Source of the DNA: a virus
Strand: one strand, 5' to 3'
DNA: 41,170 nt
Virus record (IMG/VR): IMGVR_UViG_3300030116_003902
Span: 1 to 41,170 of that record
Shown here: piece after piece, positions 4,458 through 27,046 of the stretch
How the letters are laid out: the number at the start of each line of letters is the position of its first letter
Position numbering within the stretch: position 1 is the stretch's first letter
Translations under genes and position numbers: made by a program
The notes under the pieces: model-generated
Told to the model about the DNA's origin: nothing
What the model saw: only the letters and a program-made list of their open reading frames with translations
The model's database searches: none

Positions 4458-5072
4458 ATGGCTAACCGATGGTTTGACCTTCTAAGGAGTTCTGGTAGTA
4501 TAGGAACAGGGGGAGGAACCGGGGTTAGCGCACTATTCAACAATCAGACAGGTGGCACTACCCTAAAACCAAAAAAGAAAAGGAAAGAGAAGCCATTTCG
4601 GGGAGTATTAATTAGAAAGATGCCAGCAAAAGATAGACGATACAAGATAAAACCCGAAGATATCAAACTAATGAAGAAATTGAGGGATGATGGTTTATCC
4701 TATGCGGCTGTTGCTAGGATATTAACAGAAGAACACAATATACCCATTCATGGCTCAACCGTTGCATATTGGACAGACCCGGAATATCAAAGAAAGATGA
4801 GAGAGAAAAACGCAAAACGCCGGGTTATACCGGGTTCCGCAGAACACGCTCACAAGATTAAACGAGATATGGATAAGAGGAAGGAAAATTGGGAAGAAGA
4901 CCCAGATATGAAAAGAAGGCATCTGATACAATCACGATTAAATGACAAAAGGCCACTAAAGGATGGTGTCACTCCACGGACTGTGCATACTATTGAGGGA
5001 AGACCCGTAGAGGAAGCAATCGAGGAATTAGAGAGTGGTAGGCTAAAGAGAAAGAATAGGAAGATTGATTGA
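4458..5072 (+). CDS. Helix-turn-helix protein with divergent WFDLLR tag, 204 aa
   Basis: This is the first gene of the long virion operon. The N-terminus MANRWFDLLRSSG is a divergent form of the tag that begins about twenty proteins here. Residues 30-55 are very basic (PKKKRKEKPF). About residues 70-115 read as a helix-turn-helix (LMKKLRDDGLSYAAVARILT, then HGSTVAYW), like resolvase or transposase HTH domains. The C-terminal half is charged and helical. It probably binds DNA; it could be a regulator, a packaging factor or an internal virion DNA-binding protein. The start lies seven bases after an acgac motif; an overlapping out-of-frame ATG at 4453 was rejected. Confidence 0.8.
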   Translation: MANRWFDLLRSSGSIGTGGGTGVSALFNNQTGGTTLKPKKKRKEKPFRGVLIRKMPAKDRRYKIKPEDIKLMKKLRDDGLSYAAVARILTEEHNIPIHGSTVAYWTDPEYQRKMREKNAKRRVIPGSAEHAHKIKRDMDKRKENWEEDPDMKRRHLIQSRLNDKRPLKDGVTPRTVHTIEGRPVEEAIEELESGRLKRKNRKID

Positions 5073-5073
5073 T

Positions 5074-6258
5074 ATGTGGTTTTCAATTCTCAAGGATGAG
5101 AGATTCAAACAGAAGGTAAAGGAACAACAATATGAAAATGACTTTGATGAGCATCCTACTAAGGTAGGCCCAGATGCAGAAACCACGATGTATCAAAGAA
5201 AGGATAAATCTGGAGAATATCGAAGAACAGGAAAAGCACCTGTATGGGAAAAATTTGGTATTGCTCAAGGTTTAGCCGCAGAAACCTTCCGAAGAGAAGG
5301 ATGGAAGAGAGTAAACACGCTTAAGGGTAAAGGATGGGTAATGGAAGTTCAAGCACCCGAAACAAATCAGGGAGACAAATATTCATCCCAATTGCTAATT
5401 CCCCTAAAGAAACAGAAATACAAGAAAAGAACTTCTGCTAAAACACAACCTAGAGAAAGGAGAGTAAGAGATATTCCACAAGGGCCAAGACAAGATGAGG
5501 ACTATGAAAAATGGTGGAAGAAAATGAAACCACAAGAGAGGGCAAATTGGAGAGAGACTGTGGTAGATACTAATGTGCCTCAAAAAGTTGTGCCTACCGG
5601 AACTACTGAAGTAGAGAGCCTAAATGAGACTTATAGTTGGGATGAGAAAGATTGGATAGTTATGAGGCAAAGTGGATTTGTTATCTTGGATAAGGATTGG
5701 AAGGATATTTCCTTAGACACCGAACAACCACATTTGTGTATGCATCCAATTTTCATGCCACATGATGTTTATGGAAAAAGAGTAGACTTCCCAAATTGGG
5801 TGGATAACTATGATAAAGTTAGACTCACTAATATGAATCAAGACTACTTTGGCACACTTTGCATAGAAGTTGAATCTAAGTCAGCAACAGGAAAACCCAT
5901 TGGAGATGCTTATGCGGCTTTAGCATTGGCAATAAAACCGCAGAATATTAATATGACCTTTAACGAACTTGGTCATATGACAGGATTTGAATTCAAGGAG
6001 TTTGCCCATGAACAGATTCGACATAAGGATAAATATGCTATTATGCCGTATGAAAATGCTTGGGATAGTCGTAAGCAGTTTCCAGAATATTATGATATGC
6101 TTGTTAAGGTGTCCTTAGTAGGACAAGGACATTTCAGAGATGAAGATTTCGTAAAGCCAGCAGAAGAGAGGGTTTGGCCCAAATTCCCAGAAAAGGGAAT
6201 GTATCTAATTAATGGAAATTGGGAGGCTATGGATGGCGTGGGAGATGAAGAAGAATGA
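5074..6258 (+). CDS. Hypothetical ILK-tagged protein, 394 aa
   Basis: The family is unrecognised. With the ATG at 5074 the protein begins MWFSILKDERF, a tag form without the usual second residue; an in-frame TTG at 5065 would add three residues. The first 180 residues are basic and polar, and the rest looks globular with many aromatic residues (for example LCMHPIFMPHDVYGKRVDF). It ends acidic (GVGDEEE), because the purine-rich region also forms the ribosome site of the next gene, whose ATG overlaps its stop. It is a candidate internal virion protein. Confidence 0.85.
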   Translation: MWFSILKDERFKQKVKEQQYENDFDEHPTKVGPDAETTMYQRKDKSGEYRRTGKAPVWEKFGIAQGLAAETFRREGWKRVNTLKGKGWVMEVQAPETNQGDKYSSQLLIPLKKQKYKKRTSAKTQPRERRVRDIPQGPRQDEDYEKWWKKMKPQERANWRETVVDTNVPQKVVPTGTTEVESLNETYSWDEKDWIVMRQSGFVILDKDWKDISLDTEQPHLCMHPIFMPHDVYGKRVDFPNWVDNYDKVRLTNMNQDYFGTLCIEVESKSATGKPIGDAYAALALAIKPQNINMTFNELGHMTGFEFKEFAHEQIRHKDKYAIMPYENAWDSRKQFPEYYDMLVKVSLVGQGHFRDEDFVKPAEERVWPKFPEKGMYLINGNWEAMDGVGDEEE

Positions 6259-6572
6259 GTTGGGAAAGTATTTTGAAAAGGCGCAGTTATTGTCTTGAGG
6301 GAGTGGCAAGGGATTTGTTCAAATTAGATTTAAAATACTTTTATTATTGGCTTCAAAACGCGACTCCATACGATAAACAGATGGTGAGTGGAGAGTTAGA
6401 TGAGAAACAACTCATGGAGATTGTTATGGACTCAATTGGAGAAATTGCAAGATATCGTGATAAAGGTAGAATAGATAACCAGCGATACATAGAACTCACG
6501 GAAGAGTATGAAAAGATAATAGATGACATAAAAAATTGTAAAGACGTAAAGAATTGGGATGATGGAAAATGA
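6255..6572 (+). CDS. ILK-tagged small helical protein, 105 aa
   Basis: It begins MSWESILKRRSY, a canonical tag. The remainder is helical with aromatic residues (DLKYFYYWLQNATPYDK) and a C-terminal coiled stretch (ELTEEYEKIIDDIKNC). Both ends overlap neighbours by ATGA, so translation is coupled. No enzyme motif is seen. Its membership in the tagged set is the main information available. Confidence 0.85.
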   Translation: MSWESILKRRSYCLEGVARDLFKLDLKYFYYWLQNATPYDKQMVSGELDEKQLMEIVMDSIGEIARYRDKGRIDNQRYIELTEEYEKIIDDIKNCKDVKNWDDGK

Positions 6573-6991
6573 GTTGGGAAAACGTTCTGAAGATATCCCC
6601 AGAAGAATATGGGGCTGATGAAAAGGATGGTAAGAGGCCATTGACTGATTCTGAAATAAAAGAAATAACTTATACATTTCAGAGAAAATTAAAGGAACTT
6701 GAAAAGAAACATCATGGTCTTGTTGCTGAACATGAAGTAGAGGAATTATTGGAAAAGGTAGTTCAAGATTTTGTGGATAAACATGAAGAGGCGTTTCAAC
6801 GTAAAGTAGAGAATTCAGATTCATGTGAGGAATGTGGGAAACTTCTACCAAAACCAAAACCCGGCATCCAGAGAAAGAACCCAAAGATTTCTAGAACTCA
6901 CTATGCCGCTAGAAAATTGAATCTGTGTTTGGGTTGTCTTATCAGGAGACAGTCAAGAAGACGCTTGAAGACTAGGGAGGGTTGGAGATGA
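6569..6991 (+). CDS. ILK-tagged zinc-ribbon protein, 140 aa
   Basis: The tag is MSWENVLK. Residues 25-80 form a long charged helix (ITYTFQRKLKELEKKHH). A zinc ribbon follows: CEECGK at about 91-96 and CLGC about 30 residues later, with a basic tail RRQSRRRLKTREGWR. This looks like a helical spacer plus nucleic-acid-binding ribbon, so the protein could be DNA-associated inside the capsid. It is coupled by ATGA to both neighbours. Confidence 0.85.
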   Translation: MSWENVLKISPEEYGADEKDGKRPLTDSEIKEITYTFQRKLKELEKKHHGLVAEHEVEELLEKVVQDFVDKHEEAFQRKVENSDSCEECGKLLPKPKPGIQRKNPKISRTHYAARKLNLCLGCLIRRQSRRRLKTREGWR

Positions 6992-7545
6992 ATTGGTTCG
7001 ATATTCTCAAAACCACAGACCCATTTTTCGTGGCAATTGATGAGATGGTTTCCTATTGGGAGAACCTTCACGATTGGTATGAACACATTTGGAATCAGAT
7101 TAAGCGTATGAAGAATGACCCTGTTTATGCCGGAGAGATGCAAACCTTAGTTGGTGCGTCAGAATTCACAGATAGCCAACAAGGGGCATTTCGTCAACAG
7201 GGTGAGAGTGTAGAAGACAAAAAAGGTGTGGCACAACACCATATAGACAAACTAACACAGATGCGTGATACTAATGCAATCCGTGATTTCTATTACTATC
7301 TCAAAACTCACCTTAGAAATTCTCAACAGTTGGAAGACACGAATAATATGATTTACAATGTGTTGAGAAATGAGAAACCTGCGGGAATGAGAGGATGGTT
7401 TTCAAGGTTGGATATACCAAAGCCTCCAGAAATGCCGACTTATGATTCTATTGAAAAACACACACAAAGACTAGAAGAGTTATTCTTAGTTTATGTCCCC
7501 GGTGAGAAACAGGGACATATGGGAAAATGGGTTCAGAGGAGATAA
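6988..7545 (+). CDS. ILK-tagged helical protein, 185 aa
   Basis: The ATG at 6988 overlaps the previous stop and gives MNWFDILKTTDPF; a TTG two codons earlier is less likely. The protein is helical with several Trp and Tyr residues (MVSYWENLHDWYEHIWNQIKRM). No recognised domain is present. The next gene follows after a single base. Confidence 0.85.
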   Translation: MNWFDILKTTDPFFVAIDEMVSYWENLHDWYEHIWNQIKRMKNDPVYAGEMQTLVGASEFTDSQQGAFRQQGESVEDKKGVAQHHIDKLTQMRDTNAIRDFYYYLKTHLRNSQQLEDTNNMIYNVLRNEKPAGMRGWFSRLDIPKPPEMPTYDSIEKHTQRLEELFLVYVPGEKQGHMGKWVQRR

Positions 7546-7546
7546 C

Positions 7547-7891
7547 ATGAGTTGGTTTAATCTTCTAAAAGATAAAAAATATCATGTGACTACAAGTGGA
7601 GCCGTTCCTAAAATAATGGAAGATGGAATTCAACCAAGAGGTAGTCCTAAATCTATATTGAGGGGAAATGCTTGGACTTTCACAAACTTAGATGATGCTA
7701 GAGAATATCAAAAAGAGAGTAAAAGAGATTTAGATGTTATTCTTGAGATAGAACCGGATGCTGATATTCATTTTGAGAGAGGGCCGGATGAATTAATTGG
7801 AACAGGTGGTAAGTCAGGAGTTCGTGGAAAACTACTAGAAACATCAGTTGCTAATATTCCTATTACGGGTAAGATGAAGGTGGTGGGATAA
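7547..7891 (+). CDS. ILK-tagged putative ADP-ribosyltransferase-fold protein, 114 aa
   Basis: The ATG at 7547 gives MSWFNLLKDK; the frame extends upstream, but that part belongs to the previous gene. After the tag, YHVTTSGAVPKIMEDGIQPRG (residues 12-32) resembles the first NAD-binding strand (YHxT...I...G) of small ART/KptA-like transferases. WTFTNLDDAREY (43-54) fits the second strand and helix, and VILEIEPD the third. Glu98 in LLETSVANIP could be the late catalytic acid. The H13 and E98 roles are inferred. If active it would transfer ADP-ribose from NAD to a host or viral target. Phage T4 packages an ART (Alt) behind a capsid-targeting sequence, a suggestive parallel. Confidence 0.6.
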   Translation: MSWFNLLKDKKYHVTTSGAVPKIMEDGIQPRGSPKSILRGNAWTFTNLDDAREYQKESKRDLDVILEIEPDADIHFERGPDELIGTGGKSGVRGKLLETSVANIPITGKMKVVG

Positions 7892-8262
7892 TGAAGTGGT
7901 TTGATTTAGTTAAAGACAATGTAGACGATGCTATTGACGATTTGGAAGAAGTTGCAGAAGAGTATGATTTATCTGAGCATGAATGGGAATCTGTTGATGA
8001 TGCCTCGGATTATCTCTTTGAGCATAAGGTCAAGAAATTCGTGCCAAATGACATAGGGTTTCCATTTGGGCAATACAGGAATAATAGGACTAAAAGCCTA
8101 GTCACGGTTGTTGGTGTGGATTTAGAAGAGAAAAATTTGATTTATAGATACAAAGAGTTTGGTTCAAATGAAATCAAAAGAATGTCAGAAAAGAATTTCA
8201 AGAGTGTTCATACTAGACTTGCAGATTGGAGACAAACCCTACAAAACCAACCTAAAGAATAA
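7891..8262 (+). CDS. ILK-tagged acidic protein, 123 aa
   Basis: It begins MKWFDLVKDN, a tag variant. An acidic helical segment follows (VDDAIDDLEEVAEEYDLSEHEWE), then a beta-rich part (SLVTVVGVDLEEKNLIYRYKEF) that could be a small SH3-like or Tudor-like barrel. The start overlaps the previous stop (TAATG). The function is unknown. Confidence 0.85.
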   Translation: MKWFDLVKDNVDDAIDDLEEVAEEYDLSEHEWESVDDASDYLFEHKVKKFVPNDIGFPFGQYRNNRTKSLVTVVGVDLEEKNLIYRYKEFGSNEIKRMSEKNFKSVHTRLADWRQTLQNQPKE

Positions 8263-8303
8263 AGGGATAATGTATTATGCGCCACAATTAGGGGATAGGT
8301 CAA

Positions 8304-9398: not shown

Positions 9399-9493
9399 GT
9401 TGTTGTGGTGCGGGAATAAGTTTAGATAATGAAAATGTAGGTGCGCCAACAGGTTGTCCCTACTGCTATCGGAATTGGAGTGATGAAGAATGA
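9395..9493 (+). CDS. 32-aa cysteine-rich microprotein
   Basis: The frame MSCCGAGISLDNENV ends with TGCPYCYRNWSDEE. It contains a CC pair and a CPYC pair, enough for one zinc site. It begins and ends with ATGA overlaps with the genes on either side, exactly filling the gap between them, which strongly supports translation. The role is unknown; it may be a structural zinc peptide or redox-like CPYC motif. Confidence 0.65.
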   Translation: MSCCGAGISLDNENVGAPTGCPYCYRNWSDEE

Positions 9494-9972
9494 GTTGGAG
9501 AGACATAGTAAAAATAGCCTCTAGCCGGGATGAAGACCAATTTAATGAAGTGTGGAATGATGAGGAAGACAAAAAGAAATTTCTTGTCTATCTATCAGGA
9601 CAAGAGAGAACGAATAGTCTTCATGGTAAGTGGGTATATCTGTTTTCGGCTGATACTAGACAAGAAGCATATAACGACTTAAAACAAAGAATGCATGATG
9701 GTGGAAACCCTCATCCGTGGACTGTTGAAGGAAGTCTATATGAAGGTCATGCAGTTGTTTATGATGATAGCAATCCTTTCCGGTCTTTAATGCTCATGGC
9801 TCCTTCTTATTGGTATTATATTGCTGATGGCCCAGATGATTTACCACCTTCTGAACCTGAAACAATAAGAGTTGATTGGACTTCTTCCGAGAGAGTATTG
9901 GATAGATTGGCAGGTGCAGATTATGACGAAACTAGAGAAGAAAGACAAACATGGGATGAGGATGAACAATGA
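9490..9972 (+). CDS. ILK-tagged protein, 160 aa
   Basis: It begins MSWRDIVKIASS. The first 20 bases of this gene are identical to those of the gene at 9969. The middle appears globular with aromatic residues (WVYLFSADTRQEAYNDLKQR; MAPSYWYYIADGP), and the C-terminus is acidic (RQTWDEDEQ). The family is unrecognised. The start overlaps the preceding microprotein. Confidence 0.85.
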   Translation: MSWRDIVKIASSRDEDQFNEVWNDEEDKKKFLVYLSGQERTNSLHGKWVYLFSADTRQEAYNDLKQRMHDGGNPHPWTVEGSLYEGHAVVYDDSNPFRSLMLMAPSYWYYIADGPDDLPPSEPETIRVDWTSSERVLDRLAGADYDETREERQTWDEDEQ

Positions 9973-10211
9973 GTTGGAGAGACATAGTGAAAGAGGATGA
10001 ACCTAAGACGTTCCGAGGAACAGAAGAACAAGGATTGACCATTACAGAAGAACAAAAGCAATTCTTAGTAGACAGAATAGTAGAAGCAATAGATAAAGAA
10101 ATAAAAATATTATCTGATACTAAACAGGTCACTATGGAAGATGCTAAAGAAATTCAAGAAAGAGTTCAAAGAAGGATAATAGCAGAATTTAGAGAAAGTG
10201 AAAACACATGA
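9969..10211 (+). CDS. ILK-tagged small helical protein, 80 aa
   Basis: It begins MSWRDIVKEDEP and shares an identical 20-base start with the gene at 9490, but the rest is unrelated. The body is a helical hairpin rich in Ile, Glu and Lys (QFLVDRIVEAIDKEIKIL and EIQERVQRRIIAEF). It is coupled by ATGA on both sides. Confidence 0.85.
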   Translation: MSWRDIVKEDEPKTFRGTEEQGLTITEEQKQFLVDRIVEAIDKEIKILSDTKQVTMEDAKEIQERVQRRIIAEFRESENT

Positions 10212-10864
10212 TAACGAGAAAGAGATGCAAGTTTTGCAATCACGATGAGCGAGAGCAAATGGAAGAATCCCTACATAAAAACGAAGTCTCACATGATGAC
10301 TTGGACAAAAGCATGGGTTGGCCTAGTGGAACGACTTCCAAGCATTTCCGAAATCACATGGGAGAGTATGTTGATTCCTCTAATCCCCGTTGCGTTATTT
10401 GCACAAGCCCCGGTAGGAGAGATATAGAGATAGCATTGCATAATGGGGATATGTCTGCTACTGAGGTTGCTGAGATGGAGGGTTGTTCTGAACAACAAGT
10501 GATGCGTCATATGAGAAGTCATCTCCAACCATTGGTTCAGCAGTCTGCCGCTAACATAGTGGCACAACAGGAAATGAATGAGATAGATATAATCACGAAT
10601 AACGTAGTTAGGTTGGATGCCAAGTTAGACTTATTGTTGAATGATGATGATGTTAGTCCGAAGGCCATAGATTCCCTAACCAAACTTGCTAAGGAGGTTC
10701 GTGAGAGTTTGAAGTATGCTCTAGAGTTCAAGGGCAAATTGGTTCACAAGAGACAAGATACGGTTATCGTTCACCAGATGCAAGTAATCAAGGAGGTTCT
10801 AGCACAGAACCATCCCGATGTCTGGTTAGATGTGAGAAAGCAAATGGAGGAAAAGATGCAATGA
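10208..10864 (+). CDS. Tandem zinc-HTH protein, candidate terminase small subunit, 218 aa
   Basis: Two repeats of about 55 residues each carry CxxC, a helix-turn-helix-like segment and HxRxH: C7/C10 with H46/H50, and C62/C65 with H101/H105. A helical region follows (VVRLDAKLDLLLNDDD, then LTKLAKEVRESLKYALEFKGK) and an amphipathic C-terminus. DNA-binding N-terminus, central oligomerising helices and a C-terminal partner segment match the layout of small terminase subunits, and terL lies downstream at 17687. It lacks the Trp tag. A regulator is the alternative. Confidence 0.6.
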   Translation: MITRKRCKFCNHDEREQMEESLHKNEVSHDDLDKSMGWPSGTTSKHFRNHMGEYVDSSNPRCVICTSPGRRDIEIALHNGDMSATEVAEMEGCSEQQVMRHMRSHLQPLVQQSAANIVAQQEMNEIDIITNNVVRLDAKLDLLLNDDDVSPKAIDSLTKLAKEVRESLKYALEFKGKLVHKRQDTVIVHQMQVIKEVLAQNHPDVWLDVRKQMEEKMQ

Positions 10865-11532
10865 GTTGGTGGAACGTAATTAAGGATGACAGGAAACAGG
10901 ACTTGAAAGAATGGTTCGATAGGCAATCTAAAAGTAAGCAAGATGAACTCTATGCTATCTCATATGGCAGAGCCGCAGTAATTAACGATATGAAGGCTAT
11001 TGATGTTGCGTGGCTAGATGAATTTCACCCACAATGGAGAGAGAAAAACAAGAAAACTATGAAGGAACGTGGTTCCAAAGTATATCAAAAGAATACACCT
11101 AGAATTAAGAATTTAGATGAAGATAGATGGATGGATGAAAGAAACCCAATGGATAAAAGAATACTAAGAAAACTAGACGATTTGTTTGTCTATTGGGGAG
11201 TAGGAGAGAAGTTCTCTATTGACTATAATAATGCTAAGAAAATGGCAGACGCATTCCCCCAAGTAGATGTCACCGGAAAACCTGATGACTTTGAGATGAT
11301 GTGGAATGGAAAGACATTGGGTAGCATGAAAGAACTTGATGCAGGTAGGGATGAAGAGTTCAGTTCGGAAGGAGAGTATCTTGGAAAATCTAAGTTATTC
11401 GCATTAGATACTAAGTTATTCGCCTTGCCTTATTTCGGATATAGGCCGGAGACAGGAGTAGAAGACTATGCGCCCGTAGAAAGTCGAAGTGTCATTAGAG
11501 ATAATAGAAAGGAAACAGGCTTTAGAGGTTGA
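10861..11532 (+). CDS. ILK-tagged protein, 223 aa
   Basis: It begins MSWWNVIKDDRKQ. A Trp-containing basic helical part (IDVAWLDEFHPQWREKNKKT) is followed by a region with KKMADAFPQVDVTGKPDDFE. LGKSKLFALDTKLFALPYFGYRPE near the C-terminus contains a short internal repeat (KLFAL twice). The family is unrecognised. The start overlaps the zinc-HTH gene by ATGA. Confidence 0.85.
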   Translation: MSWWNVIKDDRKQDLKEWFDRQSKSKQDELYAISYGRAAVINDMKAIDVAWLDEFHPQWREKNKKTMKERGSKVYQKNTPRIKNLDEDRWMDERNPMDKRILRKLDDLFVYWGVGEKFSIDYNNAKKMADAFPQVDVTGKPDDFEMMWNGKTLGSMKELDAGRDEEFSSEGEYLGKSKLFALDTKLFALPYFGYRPETGVEDYAPVESRSVIRDNRKETGFRG

Positions 11533-11536: not shown

Positions 11537-11977
11537 ATGAGTTGGCAGAAAATCCTCAAGGCTGATACTGAACCGAAATGGTCAGAAGAGAAAAAGAATC
11601 AGATGAGAGAACAACTCAAAGATGATGGAACTCCAGACGAATATATTGAACAATACATCTACGAAGGGCCAACCAAAACGCTTGAAGATGATTTAGGTAA
11701 GGAATACATAGGTGAATGGTGGAAAGAATACCAAATGTATGTGGAGGTAGTAGGTGAAGAAGAATCTAGAGATACTTTTCTATCTATTCTAAGTGAAGTT
11801 GACCCAGAAGTAGAGGCGAGAGGTGAATCAATGTCAACTGAGGAACTAAGTCGAAGGTTTGGAGACAAGGCTAGTTGGCAGGGCATGACAGAAATACCTC
11901 CAGAAGCAATGGAATCTGCTGAAGCATTGGAAGAACACTTCAGACGAGAATCAAAAAAACAGGAGGAATTTGAATGA
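11537..11977 (+). CDS. ILK-tagged acidic helical protein, 146 aa
   Basis: The ATG at 11537, four bases after the previous stop, gives MSWQKILKADTEP. The upstream extension of the frame overlaps the preceding gene and was not used. The protein is acidic and helical (KEYQMYVEVVGEEESRDTFL; ESAEALEEHFRRESKKQEEFE). No enzymatic motif is seen. It ends with an ATGA overlap into the 730-aa gene. Confidence 0.85.
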   Translation: MSWQKILKADTEPKWSEEKKNQMREQLKDDGTPDEYIEQYIYEGPTKTLEDDLGKEYIGEWWKEYQMYVEVVGEEESRDTFLSILSEVDPEVEARGESMSTEELSRRFGDKASWQGMTEIPPEAMESAEALEEHFRRESKKQEEFE

Positions 11978-17687: not shown

Positions 17688-19126
17688 TGGTCGAGTTAGA
17701 AGGCGTGGATTTCATGTCCGAGATGGACATGGAGATATCCAAAACCTCTTTTCCATACTTCTTCCAGAATGTCCTCGGAATGATGTTTCCAAAGTATATG
17801 CAAGAATGGCTAGAATCCATGCATAAGACAGATAGGACTGTCATCATCTGTAGTCGTGACCACGGTAAATCCGTATTCATGCATTCATGGGTAGTTTGGA
17901 ATCTCATCTTTCAAGAGCCACCATATCAGATGCTATACATCTCATCTAACCAAAAGCAGACACTTGTTCACATGAGGGAGATTGACAGATACTTCAACCA
18001 TCCAGCATTGAAACAATTCAGACCCTCAAGGGGATGGGCCATTGGGAACATTCAACTAACCAACGGTAATGCGATTCTAGAGCGTTCCGTTGGTTCACAG
18101 ATTCGTGGGTTGCACCCGCAAGAAATCATCATTGACGACCCTTTGAAGGAGTTTAGCCTAGCGGCTATTCAGCGAGTGACTGATTGGTTCTTCGGTGACA
18201 TGATACCCACTCTTCACCATACTTCCAATCTTAGGATGATTGGAACTCCTTTCACATATACGGACATATTTGCTCAGTTAGAGGAAAATCCCGCATACAA
18301 TGTAAAGAGATATCCGTGTCTTAATTCATTGAATGAACCATTGTGGCCTGAACGTTGGGACTATGATGCACTCATGCAAAGGAAGGCTGAGATTGGCTCA
18401 TTGAAATTTACGAGAGAGTATTTGTGCGTTCCAATATCAACAGGGACTGCATTATTCAATCCAGAATTTGTCAATAACTGCAAGGACAAAGATGTTATTC
18501 TGAAACTAGGAAATCGCAAGGATAAGGGCTACAAGTATTATGTTGGTGTTGACCCTGCTATCTCTACTGATGGTGATTACAATGTCATTACAGTATTGGA
18601 AGTAGATGAAGAGAAGAACAAACGTATAGTCCATATAGATAGGGCGAAGAACGTAGAGTTTAGGGAGAACATAGAGAAGATAAGGGTCATAGGTAAGATA
18701 TTCCAACCCGAAGTAGTCTTGTATGAGACTAACACTTTCGCTAAGGCATTCACTCAAGAGTTGAGAAACATATCTGATTTGAATGTGCAAGACTTCAACA
18801 CTACTAGGAAGAAGAAGCAAGAGGTTATTTTGAACCTCCAGATGAATATCGAAAATGGAAAAATGCGTTTTCCATATGGTGATGAGACAAGTAGGAGAGT
18901 CACCAATCTATTGATTGAGGAATTGTCAATGTTTTCTATAACTCATTCTGGTAAGTTTGAGGGCGTTGGCGCACATGACGATTTGGTGATGAGTTTGGCT
19001 TTAGCGAATGCCGCAACTCATGTTATGGGACAGACTTTCCTTCTCCTTGATGACATGGGAATATTTGATGAGGTAGCCCCCACTCGGCTTACTGAGCCTA
19101 ACGCAGTTTATGGTTTGAATATGTGA
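17687..19126 (+). CDS. terL: Terminase large subunit
   Basis: This is the ATP-driven DNA packaging motor and nuclease. The ATPase domain shows a Walker A-like SRDHGKS (residues 56-62, K61), Walker B IIIDDP (147-152) and a coupling segment RMIGTPF. The RNase H-like nuclease shows VGVDPA (D289), VLYET (E347) and HDDLVMS (D431/D432), the expected three acidic sites. The 479-aa length is normal. The start overlaps the GNAT stop (TAATG); an ATG at 17714 (MSEMDMEIS) is an alternative. It lacks the Trp tag, as expected for a motor that docks outside the portal. Confidence 0.95.
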   Translation: MVELEGVDFMSEMDMEISKTSFPYFFQNVLGMMFPKYMQEWLESMHKTDRTVIICSRDHGKSVFMHSWVVWNLIFQEPPYQMLYISSNQKQTLVHMREIDRYFNHPALKQFRPSRGWAIGNIQLTNGNAILERSVGSQIRGLHPQEIIIDDPLKEFSLAAIQRVTDWFFGDMIPTLHHTSNLRMIGTPFTYTDIFAQLEENPAYNVKRYPCLNSLNEPLWPERWDYDALMQRKAEIGSLKFTREYLCVPISTGTALFNPEFVNNCKDKDVILKLGNRKDKGYKYYVGVDPAISTDGDYNVITVLEVDEEKNKRIVHIDRAKNVEFRENIEKIRVIGKIFQPEVVLYETNTFAKAFTQELRNISDLNVQDFNTTRKKKQEVILNLQMNIENGKMRFPYGDETSRRVTNLLIEELSMFSITHSGKFEGVGAHDDLVMSLALANAATHVMGQTFLLLDDMGIFDEVAPTRLTEPNAVYGLNM

Positions 19127-19130: not shown

Positions 19131-20507
19131 ATGGCAAAGGAAAAAATCAATTCTGAACAGGCTAGAACCTTGTCGGAAACGTATGCTGATGCGGCAGAAG
19201 AGATAGAAGCAGTAGAAGAGAACGTGGATAGAGAGAAGTCTAAGATTGAAGAATTAGGTAGAATAGCCATGATGGATTGGCTAGATGACCAACCTATTTC
19301 CAGCCATTTTGACATTGAGAAAAAGTATGCTACCACTTACAATATGTCTTTGACTGATTCAAGAAACAAATTAGTCAACCAAGTGAAGAAATACGAAATT
19401 GACGGAAAGGACATTCCAACTCTCATAAAGGAACTACGAATCTATCGTAGGACATTGAAGGGAGAAACTAAGGTAAATTTCACAAACTCCATTGAGGATT
19501 TGATAAAGGCGTATAGTGACCATTTGGACAAATCCATAGATAATATCTATTGGCTTAGAAAATACAAACCACTAGTCAAGGACATGACTTGTTCTGAATC
19601 CCATTTGTTAAATCTCTCCAAGATAGATGATGAAGATACTAGAAGAGAAGTGATTGATGTTCTGTGTAAGTATTGGGAGGCTAAATTAGATTTGAGGGGA
19701 AGAGGGTTCTCCCCAGAATATTCACAACTCACCAAAGAAATGACAGGGGCCAAGAAGGAATTCAAGAAGATAATAAAAACCCATAAGGGATATCTGAAAA
19801 ATTGGTCAGAAAAGGATGAGATAAAGAAGCATATTTTGTATCATGTATGTGAAGAACCCGGAGTGTCCGTTAGGCAAATACAAGAAAGGCTCCCTAAGAA
19901 TCTAGCCAAGAGGACTACTAGCAGTATGATTTCCAAAATGGCAAAAACACAAAATGTCACTAATGTAAATGGTTCGCTATACAAGTTTAGTGATGAATTG
20001 AAGAAGGATATCTATTCCTATACTGCCGCCTTCATAGACTCAGATGGATATATCACTATGGATAAGAACCACAATCCAAGAGTAGGTCTAGTAGCAACAG
20101 GAGATAGAGGAAAGGCATTCATGATGGAGATGCATAAGTCTCTAGGTTGTGGTAGACTACATCTTGACCAGAAATCTCCACAAGGAACTAGACCCGTCAA
20201 TAGATTGAATTTCTATTCTATGGATGATTGCAAAGAGATACTTACAAAGTGTCTTCCACACTTCAAGATGAAGAAGGCTAATGCTGAAATTATTCTTGAA
20301 TTGATTAGGATGAAAAAATCCCATAAGAAAGCAGATTGGTATAATACTAGAAAGGAAGAATTATTCCAACTGATGAAATATGAGAATCACAAAGACCATG
20401 TAGGGTATGACTTTACGCAATACAACATAGACATTGACTCCGTTGCCAAATTGCATGGGAATTCTAAGATGGAGGAAATGGATAGAATCGAAGGAGTGTT
20501 AGCATAA
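19131..20507 (+). CDS. Helical-winged helix-LAGLIDADG endonuclease fusion, 458 aa
   Basis: Residues 1-60 are acidic coiled coil and 60-230 helical. About 235-285 resemble a winged helix (KKHILYHVCEEPGVSVRQI onward). A LAGLIDADG homing-endonuclease-like domain then starts with AAFIDSDGYI (299-308), followed by RVGLVATGDR, GCGRLHLDQK and ILELI. Only one LAGLIDADG motif is clear, so it may act as a dimer or be inactive. It lies between terL and the portal with TAATG coupling to the portal. It may be a free-standing homing nuclease fused to a virus protein, or a nuclease recruited to packaging. Confidence 0.75.
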   Translation: MAKEKINSEQARTLSETYADAAEEIEAVEENVDREKSKIEELGRIAMMDWLDDQPISSHFDIEKKYATTYNMSLTDSRNKLVNQVKKYEIDGKDIPTLIKELRIYRRTLKGETKVNFTNSIEDLIKAYSDHLDKSIDNIYWLRKYKPLVKDMTCSESHLLNLSKIDDEDTRREVIDVLCKYWEAKLDLRGRGFSPEYSQLTKEMTGAKKEFKKIIKTHKGYLKNWSEKDEIKKHILYHVCEEPGVSVRQIQERLPKNLAKRTTSSMISKMAKTQNVTNVNGSLYKFSDELKKDIYSYTAAFIDSDGYITMDKNHNPRVGLVATGDRGKAFMMEMHKSLGCGRLHLDQKSPQGTRPVNRLNFYSMDDCKEILTKCLPHFKMKKANAEIILELIRMKKSHKKADWYNTRKEELFQLMKYENHKDHVGYDFTQYNIDIDSVAKLHGNSKMEEMDRIEGVLA

Positions 20508-22192
20508 TGGCAAGAAGAAGATTTAGCGTGACGAATTTATTTAGGAGAACGACTCCTAAACCAGCAGACAGAACCATATTCAATCCGGGTATTCAAGAGC
20601 ATAAATCAACCAACATGATTACTGCTCCTATAATTTATCACGTTGCTAGTCAATCGGTTATAGTTAGGACTTGCACGACCCAACTGAAAAACGAGATATT
20701 CAGAAGAGGCTATGTGTGGGAAGAGAAGTTTGCCGCAAAATGTAGTGATTGTGGTAAGGAACATAAGGAAGTCGTTCAAGAGTGTTCTGAATGTGGCTCA
20801 ACTGATTTAGAGAAACCAGATAAAACTCAGTTGGAATACGCAAAGAAATTCCTAAGTAGATATGTCAACAAGTCTGAGCAATTATTCATTGATGTTCTCA
20901 AAGAATTAGAGGATGATTTGAATATCATGGATGATGCTTATCTTGTGATGGTCAAAGAATACTATATGGATAGTGACAGTAATATCAAGATGCATAGGAT
21001 AAAGGAAGTCTATCGAGCAGACCCTGTGGGGATGAGCATATATTCTGATGAGTTAGGACAAAAGGGAATAGATGGTTATACTTGTTTGAAACATCGAGAC
21101 TTCCTATCTAAAGAGGTGTCAGATAAATGTGAGATATGTAATGGTGACTTGCATCCTGTTCATTATGTAAATAAGATAAAGGGAGAAGAACAGTATTTCG
21201 TAGAGGGAGAGGTGCTTCATTTCAGTAAGTATGCACCCTCTAGACTCTATGGGCTTTCTCCCATAATTACCCTTTGGAATAACATCACGACATTATTGGC
21301 TATGGAAAACTATGTCAATTCTTCATACACTAAAGCGAGAATGCCAAGAGGACTATTGGCAGTTCAGACTAGAAACATAGAATCAATGAAATCCTTTTGG
21401 CGTGGGGTCAAGGAGAAGATGGAACAAGACCCACACTTCATTCCTGTTATGGGAATCGAAGCAGAAAATGGAAAGGGTTCCATCGAATGGGTTAATTTCA
21501 TGGATAGCCTAAAAGAGATGGAATACATACAGGTCAAGGATGATTTGCGTGATAGGATATCAGCCTTCTATGGTGTTAGTAAGATATTCCAGAATGATGC
21601 TTCTGCTGGAGGTGGAATGAATAACGAGGGCTTGCAGATTCTTGTCACTAATAGAGCAGTCGAGATGGCACAAACTGTTTGGAATAACTATGTATTTCCA
21701 TTTGTAGTAGAAGAGTTTGGGATTACAGATTGGAAATTAAAACTACCACCTTCAGAAGAAGAAGATGAAATTGCAGGGTTGAGGAAAAGGGAGATTGAGG
21801 TTTCCATAGCGGGACAAATAAAAAATCTAGGCTTTGAGGTAGAGATGGATGACAAAGGCAGATTCATCTATACTAAACCGGAACCCGTTGAGGGAGATGA
21901 ACAAGGAAAGAATCAATCTGGTGGAGGTGGAGAAATTGAACGTGACCCATACGCAGGGACAGACATAGACCAACAACATCTAGGTCAAATGATGGCAGAA
22001 GGAAATAAGCCTACTTTGGAAGAAGCCGGACAACCTGCAAAAGTAAAAGGAGAAGGAAAACCACAGGAAAATCCAAACCCCACAAAGAATAAAGCATCAT
22101 TAAGTGTAGGGCCGGACAAGAGGTTTAGTGGATTACCTACAGATGCTGGCAATCAGAATGTGGATAAGAGAACCGAGAGGCGAACAAGATGA
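20507..22192 (+). CDS. Portal protein with two zinc knuckles
   Basis: The portal forms the dodecameric DNA channel at one capsid vertex. Evidence is its place after terL, its 561-aa length, the typical stretches GEVLHFSKYAPSRLYGLSPI and MENYVNSSYTKARMPRGLLA, the clip/stem-like segment around YIQVKDDLRDRISAFYGVSK, and NNEGLQILVTNRAVEMAQTV. Unusually it carries two CxxC-type knuckles, C79/C82/C93/C96 and C193/H196/C208/C211. The C-terminal 110 residues are low-complexity (GGGG, PKENPNPTKNK-like), probably disordered. Membership in the HK97/SPP1 portal superfamily is inferred from pattern. Confidence 0.85.
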   Translation: MARRRFSVTNLFRRTTPKPADRTIFNPGIQEHKSTNMITAPIIYHVASQSVIVRTCTTQLKNEIFRRGYVWEEKFAAKCSDCGKEHKEVVQECSECGSTDLEKPDKTQLEYAKKFLSRYVNKSEQLFIDVLKELEDDLNIMDDAYLVMVKEYYMDSDSNIKMHRIKEVYRADPVGMSIYSDELGQKGIDGYTCLKHRDFLSKEVSDKCEICNGDLHPVHYVNKIKGEEQYFVEGEVLHFSKYAPSRLYGLSPIITLWNNITTLLAMENYVNSSYTKARMPRGLLAVQTRNIESMKSFWRGVKEKMEQDPHFIPVMGIEAENGKGSIEWVNFMDSLKEMEYIQVKDDLRDRISAFYGVSKIFQNDASAGGGMNNEGLQILVTNRAVEMAQTVWNNYVFPFVVEEFGITDWKLKLPPSEEEDEIAGLRKREIEVSIAGQIKNLGFEVEMDDKGRFIYTKPEPVEGDEQGKNQSGGGGEIERDPYAGTDIDQQHLGQMMAEGNKPTLEEAGQPAKVKGEGKPQENPNPTKNKASLSVGPDKRFSGLPTDAGNQNVDKRTERRTR

Positions 22193-22401
22193 CATGGGAA
22201 GACATTCTGAAGTATAGAAAAATACAGATGCAAGCAAAAACGAAGATAGAGAATATCAAATGGGATAGTGATAGAGAGGATTTACCGGATAGCCAAATGG
22301 TAGAAAGTAAATATCTAAAGGATAAACAAAAGGTGTTAGATTTTCTGAGTAAAAAATACGGCGCAAAAGCATTGGATTATGATAAATATGAGTTCTTCTG
22401 A
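22189..22401 (+). CDS. ILK-tagged small protein, 70 aa
   Basis: It begins MTWEDILKYRKIQ, then a basic helix and an acidic linker, and ends DFLSKKYGAKALDYDKYEFF. W-E-D-I here matches the W-D-D-I and W-N-D-I C-terminal peptides at 26391 and 31130. The start overlaps the portal stop by ATGA. No other domain is seen. Confidence 0.85.
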   Translation: MTWEDILKYRKIQMQAKTKIENIKWDSDREDLPDSQMVESKYLKDKQKVLDFLSKKYGAKALDYDKYEFF

Positions 22402-22742: not shown

Positions 22743-22751
22743 GTGAGATAC

Positions 22752-25373
22752 ATGGATTCGGATTTCATACAGATTTTGAAAATAGAATCAGATGAATTCG
22801 TAATAGATGAAGAAGAGACTATTCTGTTGAAAGTTGATTATTGGAAAGATATGGTGAGTCAAAGTAAGAAGAAAGACTATGAAAATAAAATAAAAGAACA
22901 ATTGTTTGGTGACAAATCAGAAGTGGAAATAAAAATTGGGGATGATAAACTAAAATATACTCCAGATGAATATTTTAGCCTAGCAAGAGAAGCAGAATCA
23001 AAGTATGATAAAGCATACCCACATTTTCAAGAAGATATAGGAAACCCTGTTCCCGCCGGAATACCTGCCCCTACTTTACGAGAAGAGAAAGATGAAGATG
23101 GCAAAAAAATCTTGATTAGAGAATACATGACGGAAAAAGAATTTAGAGAGTTTCACAGATTAAAGGCTAAAGAACCAAAAAAGAAACCAAAATATGAGAA
23201 ATTAACAAAACCAAAAGGTGGAAAAGATGACGAATTTTTCATGAATGTGACTCCAACTAAAGAAACCAGATTTACAGAAGAAACAGAATTGACTGCTAAT
23301 TGGAGTTTTAAAGGTGTTTCTCTAGAAAAACTAGAAGCAGAATTAGAGGCTAATGAATACAAGAATTTGACTGATGATGCAGTAAGTGAAAAGGTCGCAA
23401 AACTAACTAGCAACATCAATAAGAAACAAGAACAAATAAGAAACAAGGGTCGAGGTAGTGAAAAGACCTATACTAAAGCCGCTTGGAAAGAATATCAAAA
23501 ACTAATTACAGAAGTCAAGGAACTAGAGAAGAAAAACAATAGTCTACCTAGTATGCCAACAATGGATGACGCTAAGAAAATTAGAAGTAAGAGCAAATTA
23601 AAAGACTTAAAACTAAAAGAAAACGCTACAGATTCTGATAAATTAAAAGCATTGAAGAAAATATACAAGGAACAATTACAAGAAGCCATGAAGAGTAGAA
23701 GGGCAATTACAGATAAGAAAGAGGAAATTGCTGAGTTTAATAAAAAATTTAGAGTGGGTTCCACCCATGCCCAAAATAGACTCAAGAGTTGGATAGAACA
23801 AAGAGATTCGTTATTGAAATTAATTTCTTTGAGGTCACAAATAGCCTATGTGAAATTTCAAAACACTACTGATGAATTGACAGAAGAAGAACCTGAAGCA
23901 AAGGATTTCAAGGATGTTCCAGATTCATTATACGTCTTTGTTTCTACGGCTCTATCCGATGATGATTTCAAACAACTAGTAAGCCTATTAGAAAAATTAA
24001 ATGTATTGCATCAAGAGTCTCAAGGAGAGAAAGCAAAATATGTAGAAGACATGAAGGAAGAAGTGTCTTACAGGGGTGGTGAAAGTGAAGACCATAAAGA
24101 TAGTTTCAATGACTTCTTACTTCAAAGACTAGAGAAATTCTTCAAACCCATTAAAGTAAATAATAATGCAGTTAGAGATGACATGAAAAGAAATATAGAA
24201 AGGCATTTAGAAGAAATAATCAGACATGACCCAGAAAATACTGCTATCATCGTAAGTGAAGATGTTATTGAATCCGTGAATGCAGACGTAAATGAAAAAA
24301 TAAAAAGAGATGAGGATGCTAGAGAAAACCTCAAACAGAGTTCAAATTTACTAGATAATGTCTTTAGGAATGTCAAAGAATTTTATAATAAATTTGATTA
24401 TGATGTTTCTCAACCTAGAAGCCAATCATCAGAAGATGCATTGTTGTTTAGAATAATAAGCCAAGAAGTAGCGGGTATGGATTCACAAGAAACTTTTGAC
24501 TCGTTAGAAGAAAGAAATTTCTTTTCAGATAAGAACTTATACAAACTTGCCAAGATAATATCTATCTTAGATGAAGGACGTTCAGAAAAACAATTACAAA
24601 AAGCATTAAAAATTAGCAAGCGTAATCAAATTACAAACCATCGAAAGGTGGTCAAAGTTCTAAATAACGAATATGGCGGTGAGGTAGGACACAGAATATT
24701 TTTGAAGATTCTACGAGAACATGGTATAGATTTACCGTCTGTAAAAGATATCAAAGATGCCACTAGAAAGATAGTTTCTAGGTCTAAGAATATACGAGGA
24801 TTAGAACAAGAATTAATGGACATAAATAAAATATTTGCATCTCCATCAATGTCAGATGATATTTCTTTCTTGATGAATCCAGAATATGTTCAACAAATGT
24901 TGGATTTAGCAGAAAGAAGTTATTTCAATGCAATTGATGAAATTGACGATGATACTAATCCCGATTTAACAATGCCTATGAAACTAGAACGCAAGAAACA
25001 AATTAGAGATACTTTTGGTAGATTAGCCTATGTTGGACAATATTTGAATGCCATTAGTAGAGGCACAAACTTCTTATCCTCGGTAAATAACCAAATAATA
25101 GTATCAAATAGGGTGTTGGAGAATATGGGTATGACTTATCCTCAATTAAAATCTGAATATGGTGACACCTTGAGTAAGGAAGTTAAGCAAAAAATAAGAA
25201 AAATAGTGGCAGGGAATGCAAAAGACCCAGAAGGCCAAGACCTAACATTCTCAAGACCTCAATCAGAACCGACAGAAAAACCCGAACCTAAGAGACAACC
25301 ACTAGATAGGACAAAGCCAACAGAAGAAGAAGTTGAGAGAATAAGAGCAAAATGGAGAGGTGAACAAGAATGA
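22752..25373 (+). CDS. Very large helical protein with divergent FIQILK start, 873 aa
   Basis: With the ATG at 22752 the N-terminus is MDSDFIQILKIESDEF, which keeps the ILK but not the Trp; a GTG three codons upstream is less likely. The protein is long and strongly helical (KQEQIRNKGRGSEKTYTK; KELEKKNNSLPSMPTMDDAK; FNKKFRVGSTHAQNRLKSWI) and ends in a Pro/Glu/Arg-rich tail. The family is unrecognised. Size, helicity and context suggest a large structural, internal or tape-like protein; a true tape measure would be expected further right in the tail module. Confidence 0.85.
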   Translation: MDSDFIQILKIESDEFVIDEEETILLKVDYWKDMVSQSKKKDYENKIKEQLFGDKSEVEIKIGDDKLKYTPDEYFSLAREAESKYDKAYPHFQEDIGNPVPAGIPAPTLREEKDEDGKKILIREYMTEKEFREFHRLKAKEPKKKPKYEKLTKPKGGKDDEFFMNVTPTKETRFTEETELTANWSFKGVSLEKLEAELEANEYKNLTDDAVSEKVAKLTSNINKKQEQIRNKGRGSEKTYTKAAWKEYQKLITEVKELEKKNNSLPSMPTMDDAKKIRSKSKLKDLKLKENATDSDKLKALKKIYKEQLQEAMKSRRAITDKKEEIAEFNKKFRVGSTHAQNRLKSWIEQRDSLLKLISLRSQIAYVKFQNTTDELTEEEPEAKDFKDVPDSLYVFVSTALSDDDFKQLVSLLEKLNVLHQESQGEKAKYVEDMKEEVSYRGGESEDHKDSFNDFLLQRLEKFFKPIKVNNNAVRDDMKRNIERHLEEIIRHDPENTAIIVSEDVIESVNADVNEKIKRDEDARENLKQSSNLLDNVFRNVKEFYNKFDYDVSQPRSQSSEDALLFRIISQEVAGMDSQETFDSLEERNFFSDKNLYKLAKIISILDEGRSEKQLQKALKISKRNQITNHRKVVKVLNNEYGGEVGHRIFLKILREHGIDLPSVKDIKDATRKIVSRSKNIRGLEQELMDINKIFASPSMSDDISFLMNPEYVQQMLDLAERSYFNAIDEIDDDTNPDLTMPMKLERKKQIRDTFGRLAYVGQYLNAISRGTNFLSSVNNQIIVSNRVLENMGMTYPQLKSEYGDTLSKEVKQKIRKIVAGNAKDPEGQDLTFSRPQSEPTEKPEPKRQPLDRTKPTEEEVERIRAKWRGEQE

Positions 25374-25573
25374 CTTGGGAAGAGATTGTTAAATGGTCAT
25401 CTACGCAGATGAGACAATGTGGTGCAACCTCATGTGATTATCATAAGCATCATGGGCATAACAATTGTAGTCTCCCAATTATCGAAATAGATAGACAAGG
25501 TAAATGTGCTAGATTCAAACCCAAGAGACTACCAAAGGAATCGGGTTCTGCAATAAGGGAGGGTAGAGAATGA
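25370..25573 (+). CDS. ILK-tagged Cys/His-rich protein, 67 aa
   Basis: The tag is MTWEEIVKWSS. It is followed by MRQCGATSCDYHKHHGHNNC and a later C in RQGKCARF. The C-x4-C-x-x-H-x-H-H spacing suggests a metal site, perhaps zinc. The C-terminus is basic. It overlaps both neighbours by four bases. Confidence 0.8.
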   Translation: MTWEEIVKWSSTQMRQCGATSCDYHKHHGHNNCSLPIIEIDRQGKCARFKPKRLPKESGSAIREGRE

Positions 25574-25905
25574 GTTGGCAGGGAATTCTAAAGTCTAAGC
25601 CTCTATTAGAGAAGGTGGATAGCAAGCAGAAAAAGAAATTGAAGAAACTGTTGCAATCCTCACAACCTACTGAGTTCTTTGGGCAAGACATGACTAAATT
25701 AAGTGGGGTAATTGAGGGTCTTATGGACTTAGATTTGGTTCAGAAAGATGAAGCCTTCAAGAAGAAGATGAAAAAATACGAGGAAAAGAATTTAGATATC
25801 CTATCGTCTGCCGCAGAATTGAGGAAGGACTACGAGACTCTATATGGGCAGTTGAGGCAAGAGATTCTACCAAAGAAGAAAGGTAAAGTGGGGAAAAAGA
25901 AATGA
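25570..25905 (+). CDS. ILK-tagged Lys-rich helical protein, 111 aa
   Basis: It begins MSWQGILKSKPLLEK. The body is Lys-rich and helical (SKQKKKLKKLLQSSQP; AFKKKMKKYEEKNLDILSSA), ending in KKKGKVGKKK. The strongly basic tail could contact packaged DNA. The residue after the ILK is Ser, as in several other tag copies and the capsid protein site. ATGA coupling is present on both sides. Confidence 0.85.
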   Translation: MSWQGILKSKPLLEKVDSKQKKKLKKLLQSSQPTEFFGQDMTKLSGVIEGLMDLDLVQKDEAFKKKMKKYEEKNLDILSSAAELRKDYETLYGQLRQEILPKKKGKVGKKK

Positions 25906-26168
25906 TTTGGCAAACTATACTAAAATCAGAAGATGCGCTAAAAGAATGGATGGAAGAGTGGCAACTAGCCAAACAAAAGTTAGATGAGGAATTCATTGAA
26001 AAATATGAAGCGATTAGGGAGAGTCTAAAGAGAGAAGCACCAAAGGCACATCAATCTTCCAAGAATCTAAGAAGGAAACATCCCCATACAGGTAGAAAGA
26101 GACAACCTGTTGAAATATCTAATAAAGAAAGAGCAAGAGCAGAATTAGAGGTAGATGAAGATGAGTGA
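25902..26168 (+). CDS. ILK-tagged helical protein, 88 aa
   Basis: It begins MIWQTILKSEDALKEW. One long amphipathic helix (WMEEWQLAKQKLDEEFIEKY) is followed by a basic, His/Pro-containing segment (NLRRKHPHTGRKRQPVEIS) and an acidic end. No enzyme motif is present. Possible DNA or scaffold contact is inferred from the basic stretch. Confidence 0.85.
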   Translation: MIWQTILKSEDALKEWMEEWQLAKQKLDEEFIEKYEAIRESLKREAPKAHQSSKNLRRKHPHTGRKRQPVEISNKERARAELEVDEDE

Positions 26169-26391
26169 AGAAAATAAAGATGAAATGGTTTTACTATTGA
26201 AAACATTAGTAGACAAAGTGAAAAATTTAGAAAGAGCAGTTTATGATAAGGATAATCTACTCATGAAGAGTGGGTATGTCATGGTTAATAGCCCAACTCC
26301 ACATACTGCACATGAAAGTGGTATTAATGGAGATACCATTGCTAAGATGGAATGGGATGATATTCATAAGATGGCTGAAAATCTAGGATGA
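26161..26391 (+). CDS. Small helical protein ending in a scaffold-like EWDDIHKM peptide, 76 aa
   Basis: The ATG at 26161 (ATGAGTGA overlap) gives MSEENKDEMVLLLKTLVDKV; an ATG at 26155 is an alternative. A coiled-coil helix is followed by a linker and a C-terminus ending AKMEWDDIHKMAENLG. This closely matches the last residues of the protease-scaffold protein (EMDWNDIHNLVGGV) and the N-terminal tag W-x-D-I. The coiled coil plus terminal peptide looks like a mini-scaffold or adaptor. Confidence 0.75.
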   Translation: MSEENKDEMVLLLKTLVDKVKNLERAVYDKDNLLMKSGYVMVNSPTPHTAHESGINGDTIAKMEWDDIHKMAENLG

Positions 26392-26396
26392 TTGAA

Positions 26397-26843
26397 ATGA
26401 GTTGGATGGCTGTTCTAAAATCTCCATTATATGCAGATTCTCCCAACCCACAACTTGATGTTAAGAGATTAGAACAAGATGCTCGTTATGATGAATATCT
26501 TTCTAACCCTATGTTTAGTAATAAGAAGAATCCATTTACATTTCAATCTAATGATGGTAATGCTAGAGGTAAATTTTCTCTTGGAACTGATATTGATGGC
26601 AATGCTATTTGGACTTTGAATCTTTTTGAAATAGCAAATACTCATAGAGGAAAAGGATTAGCAAGAAAATACTTAAAAGAATTAGTATCAGATATTAGAG
26701 AGGTAGAAGATAACCCCAATTTTAATTTACATGAAGATAGTCCTTTAGATATAGTAGCCACACAATCTTTAATGGAAATAGAATTTTGGGATAAGATGAT
26801 TAGAGAAGGAATTATACAAGGACAGGATGGTAGCCCGATATGA
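26397..26843 (+). CDS. ILK-tagged GNAT-like acetyltransferase, 148 aa
   Basis: The ATG at 26397 places MSWMAVLKSPLYAD at the start; the ATG at 26388 would add MIE and give the ATGA overlap usual here, so the start is uncertain. A GNAT motif A is visible: LNLFEIANTHRGKGLARKYL (residues 74-93), with R-G-K-G-L-A as the acetyl-CoA loop. Preceding strands (ARGKFSLGTDIDGNAIWTL) and a C-terminal helix fit a compact GNAT. It is unlike the GNAT at 17127 apart from the tag. The substrate is unknown. Confidence 0.7.
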   Translation: MSWMAVLKSPLYADSPNPQLDVKRLEQDARYDEYLSNPMFSNKKNPFTFQSNDGNARGKFSLGTDIDGNAIWTLNLFEIANTHRGKGLARKYLKELVSDIREVEDNPNFNLHEDSPLDIVATQSLMEIEFWDKMIREGIIQGQDGSPI

Positions 26844-27046
26844 GTTGGATGGATATTCTAAAGCGGAAATGCTTCTACTGTGGTCAAAGTCCATGTGTAT
26901 GCACAGATGAAGCCACCGGAGAAATGCCAAAAAAGAATTTAGAAGAAACTAATCTACAGGGAGAACTTGATTTGAAGGATAAGGAAACAGATAAAGAGGG
27001 AGTCCTAGTAGCAGGGGCATTAATGGGAGGTAAAGACGATGAGTGA
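26840..27046 (+). CDS. ILK-tagged zinc-knuckle protein, 68 aa
   Basis: It begins MSWMDILKRKCFYCGQSPCVC. CxxC and CxC form a four-Cys metal site immediately after the tag (about residues 11-21). The rest is acidic and disordered, ending in a small hydrophobic stretch and GGKDDE. Coupled to its neighbours by short overlaps. Confidence 0.85.
   Translation: MSWMDILKRKCFYCGQSPCVCTDEATGEMPKKNLEETNLQGELDLKDKETDKEGVLVAGALMGGKDDE

Follow-up and report, generated by a model that had tools for sequence, protein, structure and literature searches.

In this study, a 41,170-nt stretch of viral DNA (IMG/VR record IMGVR_UViG_3300030116_003902, positions 1 to 41,170; referred to here as the window) was analyzed for a short N-terminal peptide, consensus M-S-W-x-D-I-L-K, that is carried by otherwise unrelated proteins and is called the tag below. 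The 41 kb window encodes a tailed-virus head module, comprising a terminase large subunit, a portal protein, an ATP-dependent DNA ligase, an S78 prohead protease, and an SU10-type capsid protein. All 20 tagged N-termini named in an earlier, sequence-only reading of this DNA are present, each at the start of an open reading frame (ORF) on the + strand:

4458-4487, + strand: tag MANRWFDLLR, divergent (ORF 4458-5072)
5074-5094, + strand: tag MWFSILK, residue 2 missing (ORF 5074-6258)
6255-6278, + strand: tag MSWESILK (ORF 6255-6572)
6569-6592, + strand: tag MSWENVLK (ORF 6569-6991)
6988-7011, + strand: tag MNWFDILK (ORF 6988-7545)
7547-7570, + strand: tag MSWFNLLK (ORF 7547-7891)
7891-7914, + strand: tag MKWFDLVK (ORF 7891-8262)
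9490-9513, + strand: tag MSWRDIVK (ORF 9490-9972)
9969-9992, + strand: tag MSWRDIVK (ORF 9969-10211)
10861-10884, + strand: tag MSWWNVIK (ORF 10861-11532)
11537-11560, + strand: tag MSWQKILK (ORF 11537-11977)
11974-11997, + strand: tag MSWKNLLK (ORF 11974-14166, 730 aa)
17127-17150, + strand: tag MNWFSILK, TTG start (ORF 17127-17687)
22189-22212, + strand: tag MTWEDILK (ORF 22189-22401)
22752-22781, + strand: W-less variant tag MDSDFIQILK (ORF 22752-25373)
25370-25393, + strand: tag MTWEEIVK (ORF 25370-25573)
25570-25593, + strand: tag MSWQGILK (ORF 25570-25905)
25902-25925, + strand: tag MIWQTILK (ORF 25902-26168)
26397-26420, + strand: tag MSWMAVLK (ORF 26397-26843)
26840-26863, + strand: tag MSWMDILK (ORF 26840-27046)

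A W-containing tag opens 17 of the 52 ORFs in a mechanical gene set of the window; two further tags (6255 and 6569) were missed in that set only through a spurious antisense ORF. By chance, ~0.01 tagged starts would be expected among ~46 genes, and the strict motif occurs three times within these genes, across 11,878 internal positions. The starts of the terminase, portal, capsid, ligase, and GTPase genes lack the tag, as had been claimed. Some starts were corrected: MNWFSILK (17127) begins with TTG, MNWFDILK begins at 6988 within a longer TTG-opened frame, and the start of MWFSILK is the ATG at 5074 rather than the TTG at 5065. The M-W form of the latter was also found in tagged families elsewhere, and MDSDFIQILK (22752) keeps the ILK half, like family 29 (MDRLESILK). 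ORF 6569-6991 has CxxC pairs that appear zinc-binding-like by eye, and ORF 25570-25905 looks like a member of a family with 56 homologs among the loci described below. Far from the cluster, a small protein near the tail genes (40096-40320) begins MFEFMKILK, a possible divergent tag.

The tag is widely distributed among relatives of this virus. A scan of IMG/VR by capsid protein returned 530 stretches encoding relatives, of which 80 were kept; adding the loci from a further scan, for the DNA pattern of the tag itself, brought the total to 198 loci. In them, the strict tag was found on 657 distinct proteins, with up to ~20 per genome. These proteins fall into 321 families that BLAST could not join after tag removal. 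No common sequence follows the tag, in agreement with the sequence-only reading: the information content is high at residues 2, 3, and 5-8 but low at residue 9 and beyond. When 131 longer non-homologous representatives were aligned, the consensus was likewise MSWxxILK and then nothing, with W3 invariant and K8 at 90% or more. The fixed positions are partly due to selection, because family choice required M, W, K, and the hydrophobic residues; positions 2, 4, 5, 9, and 10 were unconstrained by that choice and are therefore informative. Among homologs of the larger tagged families, collected with no tag required, the tag is present in strict form in 149 of 241 and in relaxed form in 29 (including MWQDIVK, MDWFDTLK, and MDRLESILK), and some homologs with no match hold the peptide inside a longer frame. 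Relaxed tags such as MDRLESILK indicate that the end of the motif persists where the Trp has been lost. In a shuffle test, 22 internal tag copies were found versus 1.3 expected, and three C-terminal copies versus 0.05 expected. Double, internal, or C-terminal copies occur in some proteins (L182:12283-13131 and L199:6537-7280, as well as L160 and L162 with C-terminal copies), as if two cargo units were joined via a cleavable linker.

The sequence-only reading had proposed a search of related contigs for enrichment near head genes. In large relatives, the motif was indeed restricted to the strand of the head genes and nearly always lay close to the terminase: across 17 contigs of 66-103 kb, a loose DNA pattern gave 146 matches, all on the terminase strand, and the reversed pattern gave two. 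PolB lies on the strand opposite to the tags in all 10 large contigs tested. Core genes of the group were found within the fetched stretch in 53 of the 118 tag-scan loci (L083-L200), and 31 of 44 further records, reached via the L085-L160 loci with no core genes in their stretch, carry the same terminase (59-87% identity). Three contigs of 51-73 kb gave one pattern match each and showed no terminase or S78 protease; these single matches look like background.

Both halves of the tag recur in the head proteins encoded nearby. The features concerned, with the untagged anchor genes, are as follows:

17687-19126, + strand: terminase large subunit, untagged anchor gene (Pfam)
20507-22192, + strand: portal protein, untagged (Pfam)
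26155-26391, + strand: small coiled-coil, scaffold-like protein
26254-26268, + strand: conserved NLLMK/SG of the small scaffold-like protein, putative site
26347-26367, + strand: scaffold-type C-terminus MEWDDIH of the small scaffold-like protein
29895-31130, + strand: prohead protease (Peptidase_S78, Pfam) with a fused coiled-coil scaffold domain
29946-29963, + strand: putative autocleavage site FDILK/S (K22, S23) before the protease domain (relatives' alignment)
30402-30416, + strand: putative cleavage site FDILK (K174), protease/scaffold junction (74/74 relatives)
31089-31109, + strand: scaffold C-terminus MDWNDIH (MSWGDIH in most relatives)
31132-32538, + strand: major capsid protein, SU10-type, HK97 fold family (Pfam)
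31207-31224, + strand: putative capsid-protein cleavage site NSLLK/S, residues 26-31 (relatives' alignment)

The protease assignment is based on a Pfam Peptidase_S78 match (E 3e-9; 37.5 bits versus a 21-bit cut-off), and the gene adjoins the capsid gene. The sequence-only reading had noted neither the ILK half in the prohead protease and capsid protein nor the MSWxDI half that ends two scaffold-type proteins. In the scaffold C-terminus, M-S-W-x-D-I-H, W and D or E are found in 74/74 relatives each and H in 73/74. The protease shows F-x-I-L-K-S in 73/73 relatives just ahead of the protease domain, after a leader whose sequence and length vary freely. The junction site has the same letters, FDILK, as are contained in the tag MNWFDILK (6988). 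Residues 26-31 of the capsid protein read N-[AS]-L-L-K-[SA], with K30 in 80/80 relatives and Ser or Ala at residue 31. The small scaffold-like protein is unrelated to the protease-fused scaffold yet shares its C-terminal motif: most relatives end in M-[DE]-W-x-D-I-H, and LMKSG is invariant in mid-protein. The candidate sites and the scaffold end are kept in deep clades, whose capsid proteins are 42-57% identical. From these alignments, the tag can be read as a fusion of the scaffold C-terminus (MSWxDI) with a site of the protease type (ILK). An AlphaFold model of the protease was of low confidence (mean pLDDT 54) and was used for domain layout only; it tentatively shows the protease domain flanked by unstructured stretches in which both ILK sites lie, and suggests a long helix (301-382) and a final short-helix pair in which W401 opens the last helix. 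A PDB fold search with this model gave noise, and a PDB sequence search with both alignments returned nothing meaningful. The capsid protein model (pLDDT 42) was dropped as unusable.

Residues following the tag point to cleavage after Lys8. Pro is absent at residue 9 in all 657 tagged proteins (across the 321 families, 0 versus 12.2 expected; P = 4e-6), and 42-53 of the 657 have Pro at each of residues 10-12. At residue 10, Asp was found in 64 of the 321 families versus 24.7 expected (P = 2e-12). The protease's own N-terminal site is K/S-[DE] in 73/73 relatives, and at the protease/scaffold junction Glu or Asp stands two residues past the Lys in 67/74. Thus, residue 9 appears to behave as a protease P1' position, and residue 10 as the P2' of the protease's own site.

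The match to the scaffold end and the match to the protease sites together make it most likely that the tag brings cargo into the forming head and is afterwards removed by cleavage. This agrees with the procapsid sorting tag, similar to the capsid-targeting sequence of phage T4, that was proposed in the sequence-only reading, and we consider it probable that MSWxDILK is a removable capsid-targeting propeptide. M-S-W-x-[DN]-I would bind the same partner as the scaffold C-terminus M-S-W-G-D-I-H. This partner is presumably the capsid shell, at its inner face, or otherwise the scaffold itself, and any protein bearing the peptide would thus be carried into the growing procapsid. In a second step, to which the residue statistics above lend support, [IVL]-[LIV]-K would be recognized by the S78 prohead protease and cut after Lys8; the same protease presumably cuts FxILK/S, FDILK, LLK/S or A of the capsid protein, and LMK/S of the small scaffold. 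We infer that the freed cargo remains in the head with the DNA and that at least part of it is delivered to the next host cell, with a probable role for much of it in takeover or counter-defence there. Fusion of the tag to a reading frame may be how new cargo is acquired, which would explain the hundreds of unrelated cargo families.

Several points weigh against this interpretation. Residue 9 of the tagged proteins is not small (Ser, Ala, or Gly in 20% versus 16% background), whereas the protease and capsid sites have Ser or Ala, so the protease would have to tolerate diverse P1' residues. The aromatic residue lies six places before the cut in tags and five at the protease sites. The folded end of the S78 domain may include the FDILK of the junction, whose invariance is thus perhaps partly structural; both structure models, of the capsid protein and the protease, are poor. 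The nearest isolated relatives by capsid protein (~25% identity) are HVTV-1 and HCTV-1, haloarchaeal tailed viruses of the Druskaviridae, which share the protease-then-capsid gene order; the head-region gene starts of HVTV-1 carry no W tag, and only K/A-like candidate sites were found there. The diversity of residue 9 and the different aromatic spacing would fit a tag that targets cargo to the procapsid and stays uncut, with ILK resembling the protease sites only as the end of a hydrophobic-hydrophobic-Lys binding helix. Against this stand the complete exclusion of Pro at residue 9 alone when it is tolerated or enriched from residue 10, the Asp preference at residue 10 that tags share with the protease's own site, and the W-less variants that retain ILK, and we regard an uncut tag as unlikely. 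It is less probable still that the docking site of the tag is some other hub, such as a replication factory, a host chaperone, or the membrane, and that the location by head genes is an operon convenience. The diversity of the cargo, little of which can be given a function, would suit this idea; the two halves, however, are matched by the C-terminus of the scaffold and by the sites in the head protease and capsid protein, and the tags cluster near the terminase on the head-gene strand with PolB on the other.

Explanations at the level of DNA fare worse. The sequence-only reading had named a translation-enhancing leader as an alternative and a start-region DNA signal with purely synonymous conservation as a result that would count against sorting. 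When this was tested, amino acids rather than codons proved to be conserved, with the exception of a bias at Ser2, which is AGT in 96% of tagged families versus 55% of untagged Met-Ser genes. A Shine-Dalgarno-like G-rich stretch upstream of the tagged starts would also suit a leader. In contrast, the tag uses Ile, Leu, Val, Asp, and Lys codons at close to the background frequencies of its genes, with all six Leu codons occurring; internal and C-terminal copies of the peptide are not the behaviour of a translation leader; and structural genes of the same operon lack the tag. On these grounds, a leader or DNA signal was rejected as very improbable. The AGT bias may reflect copying of the tag between genes; it suggests that many tags derive from other tags in this way, because TCN and AGY serine codons cannot be interconverted in a single step. 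A mobile 5' gene segment, spread by recombination and functionless, would predict such copying, but tags are kept across the diverged homologs counted above, often with altered residues and the same pattern, and show strong amino-acid constraint with free synonymous change; this explanation has almost no probability in our view.

The system closest to a removable propeptide of this kind is the T4 capsid-targeting sequence (CTS), found on internal proteins IPI-IPIII and cut by gp21. As in T4, a short common N-terminal peptide is found here on unrelated proteins encoded near head genes. The CTS is ten N-terminal residues long; residues 4 and 7 determine its targeting, and residues 8 and 10 its processing (PMC9026906). 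Its targeting determinants thus precede its processing determinants, an order that the tag would share, and in T4 a short hydrophobic-x-charged cleavage motif (L/I-X-E) is also used on capsid and scaffold proteins (PMC9026906), as is proposed here. Unlike the CTS, the tag has Lys rather than Glu before the presumed cut and a near-invariant Trp, shows no sequence relation to it, occurs on hundreds of cargo families in viruses of inferred archaeal hosts, and has a binding half that copies the viral scaffold C-terminus. Since tags end in [ILV][ILV]K and not in L/I-X-E, the tag would be CTS-like in its working and not a homologous member. In HK97, the capsid protein is cleaved between K103 and S104 (PMC10275583), a Lys/Ser precedent for the proposed capsid K30/S31 and protease K22/S23 sites. 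The Pfam Peptidase_S78 match of the window protease is a further likeness to the HK97 gp4 system; in HK97, however, the scaffold is the N-terminal domain of the capsid protein, whereas here it is fused to the protease and the site is common to many cargo proteins. In the jumbo phages phiKZ and SPN3US, a prohead protease removes propeptides from many head and ejection proteins (PMC9026906), cutting after S/A-X-E with few other determinants, whereas one common eight-residue tag is found here. The available literature, in which magrovirus coverage was incomplete, contained no description of the tag.

Encapsulin cargo-loading peptides are also short and load unrelated proteins into an HK97-fold shell. 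They are usually C-terminal and not viral, whereas here the shell would be the virus capsid protein; the analogy is weaker because encapsulin cargo peptides are not cut by a head protease.

Few family matches were found among the 131 tagged representatives. Single matches were to a CCA-adding tRNA nucleotidyltransferase, a PAP2 phosphatase, pentapeptide repeats, and a 2H-type tRNA ligase phosphodiesterase domain; these functions are compatible with injected takeover or repair proteins, which they do not by themselves show. The tagged nucleotidyltransferase (L135:6432-7679; PHROG E 3e-62) is a possible tRNA-repair cargo. A defence library searched against the tagged proteins gave three weak single matches, and one tagged protein had a PHROG head-maturation-protease match (E 2e-6) that was not traced to its sequence. 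Of the functions assigned earlier by eye, the GNAT at 17127 has a weak Pfam match (E 0.008), and the ART-like assignment of 7547 found no Pfam support.

The virus appears to belong to the magroviruses (order Magrovirales), whose gene content and layout have been described (PMC12999244). Relatives have the ~90-110 kb genome, PolB, and head and replication modules on opposite strands of that order, features scored on relatives since the window itself is 41 kb; an ATP-dependent ligase and a Druskaviridae-related capsid protein complete the resemblance. This affiliation is based on gene content and layout compared with PMC12999244, and not on a host link. The hosts of this marine group are probably Poseidoniales archaea. 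A host search of genome contigs via the capsid protein returned only stray contigs in two bacterial metagenome-assembled genomes (MAGs); these contigs of the virus group (L202 and L203), within Maricaulis and Altibacter MAGs, apparently reflect binning contamination. In the eight close relatives tested, the PolB matches are divided between two stretches that mostly belong to different open frames (for example, G014:C1:14776-15740 and G007:C1:11982-13631), possibly because of a split gene or an inserted element; the two deeper-clade contigs tested have the match in one stretch only.

Elsewhere in the window, the ORF between terminase and portal (19131-20507) contains by eye a LAGLIDADG-like stretch (AAFIDSDGYITM), which suggests a homing-endonuclease-type domain fused to another protein. 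In intergenic DNA left of the tag cluster, related direct repeats with ACCATATGG and GACTTTxGTA recur and are possibly promoters or regulatory sites:

167-225, 1150-1179, 1715-1759, 2339-2435, 2776-2837, 3896-3996: direct repeats

In sum, this study suggests that an abundant marine virus group uses one exchangeable bipartite label, consisting of a scaffold mimic and a maturation-protease site, with which an open-ended range of proteins from several hundred families would be loaded into the heads, and we think it likely that each tagged gene can be taken, from its sequence, as predicted virion cargo. In uncultured archaeal viruses, homology leaves the majority of genes unassigned. Should the tag be a signal for loading into the head, the unknown proteins that travel in the virion could be predicted from it. 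At least 321 families of candidate injected proteins would then be catalogued for a virus group that is probably among the most abundant in the sea, and a short tag would be available for loading proteins into a virus shell. A solution similar to that of T4 would thus have arisen with an unrelated sequence code in archaeal viruses.

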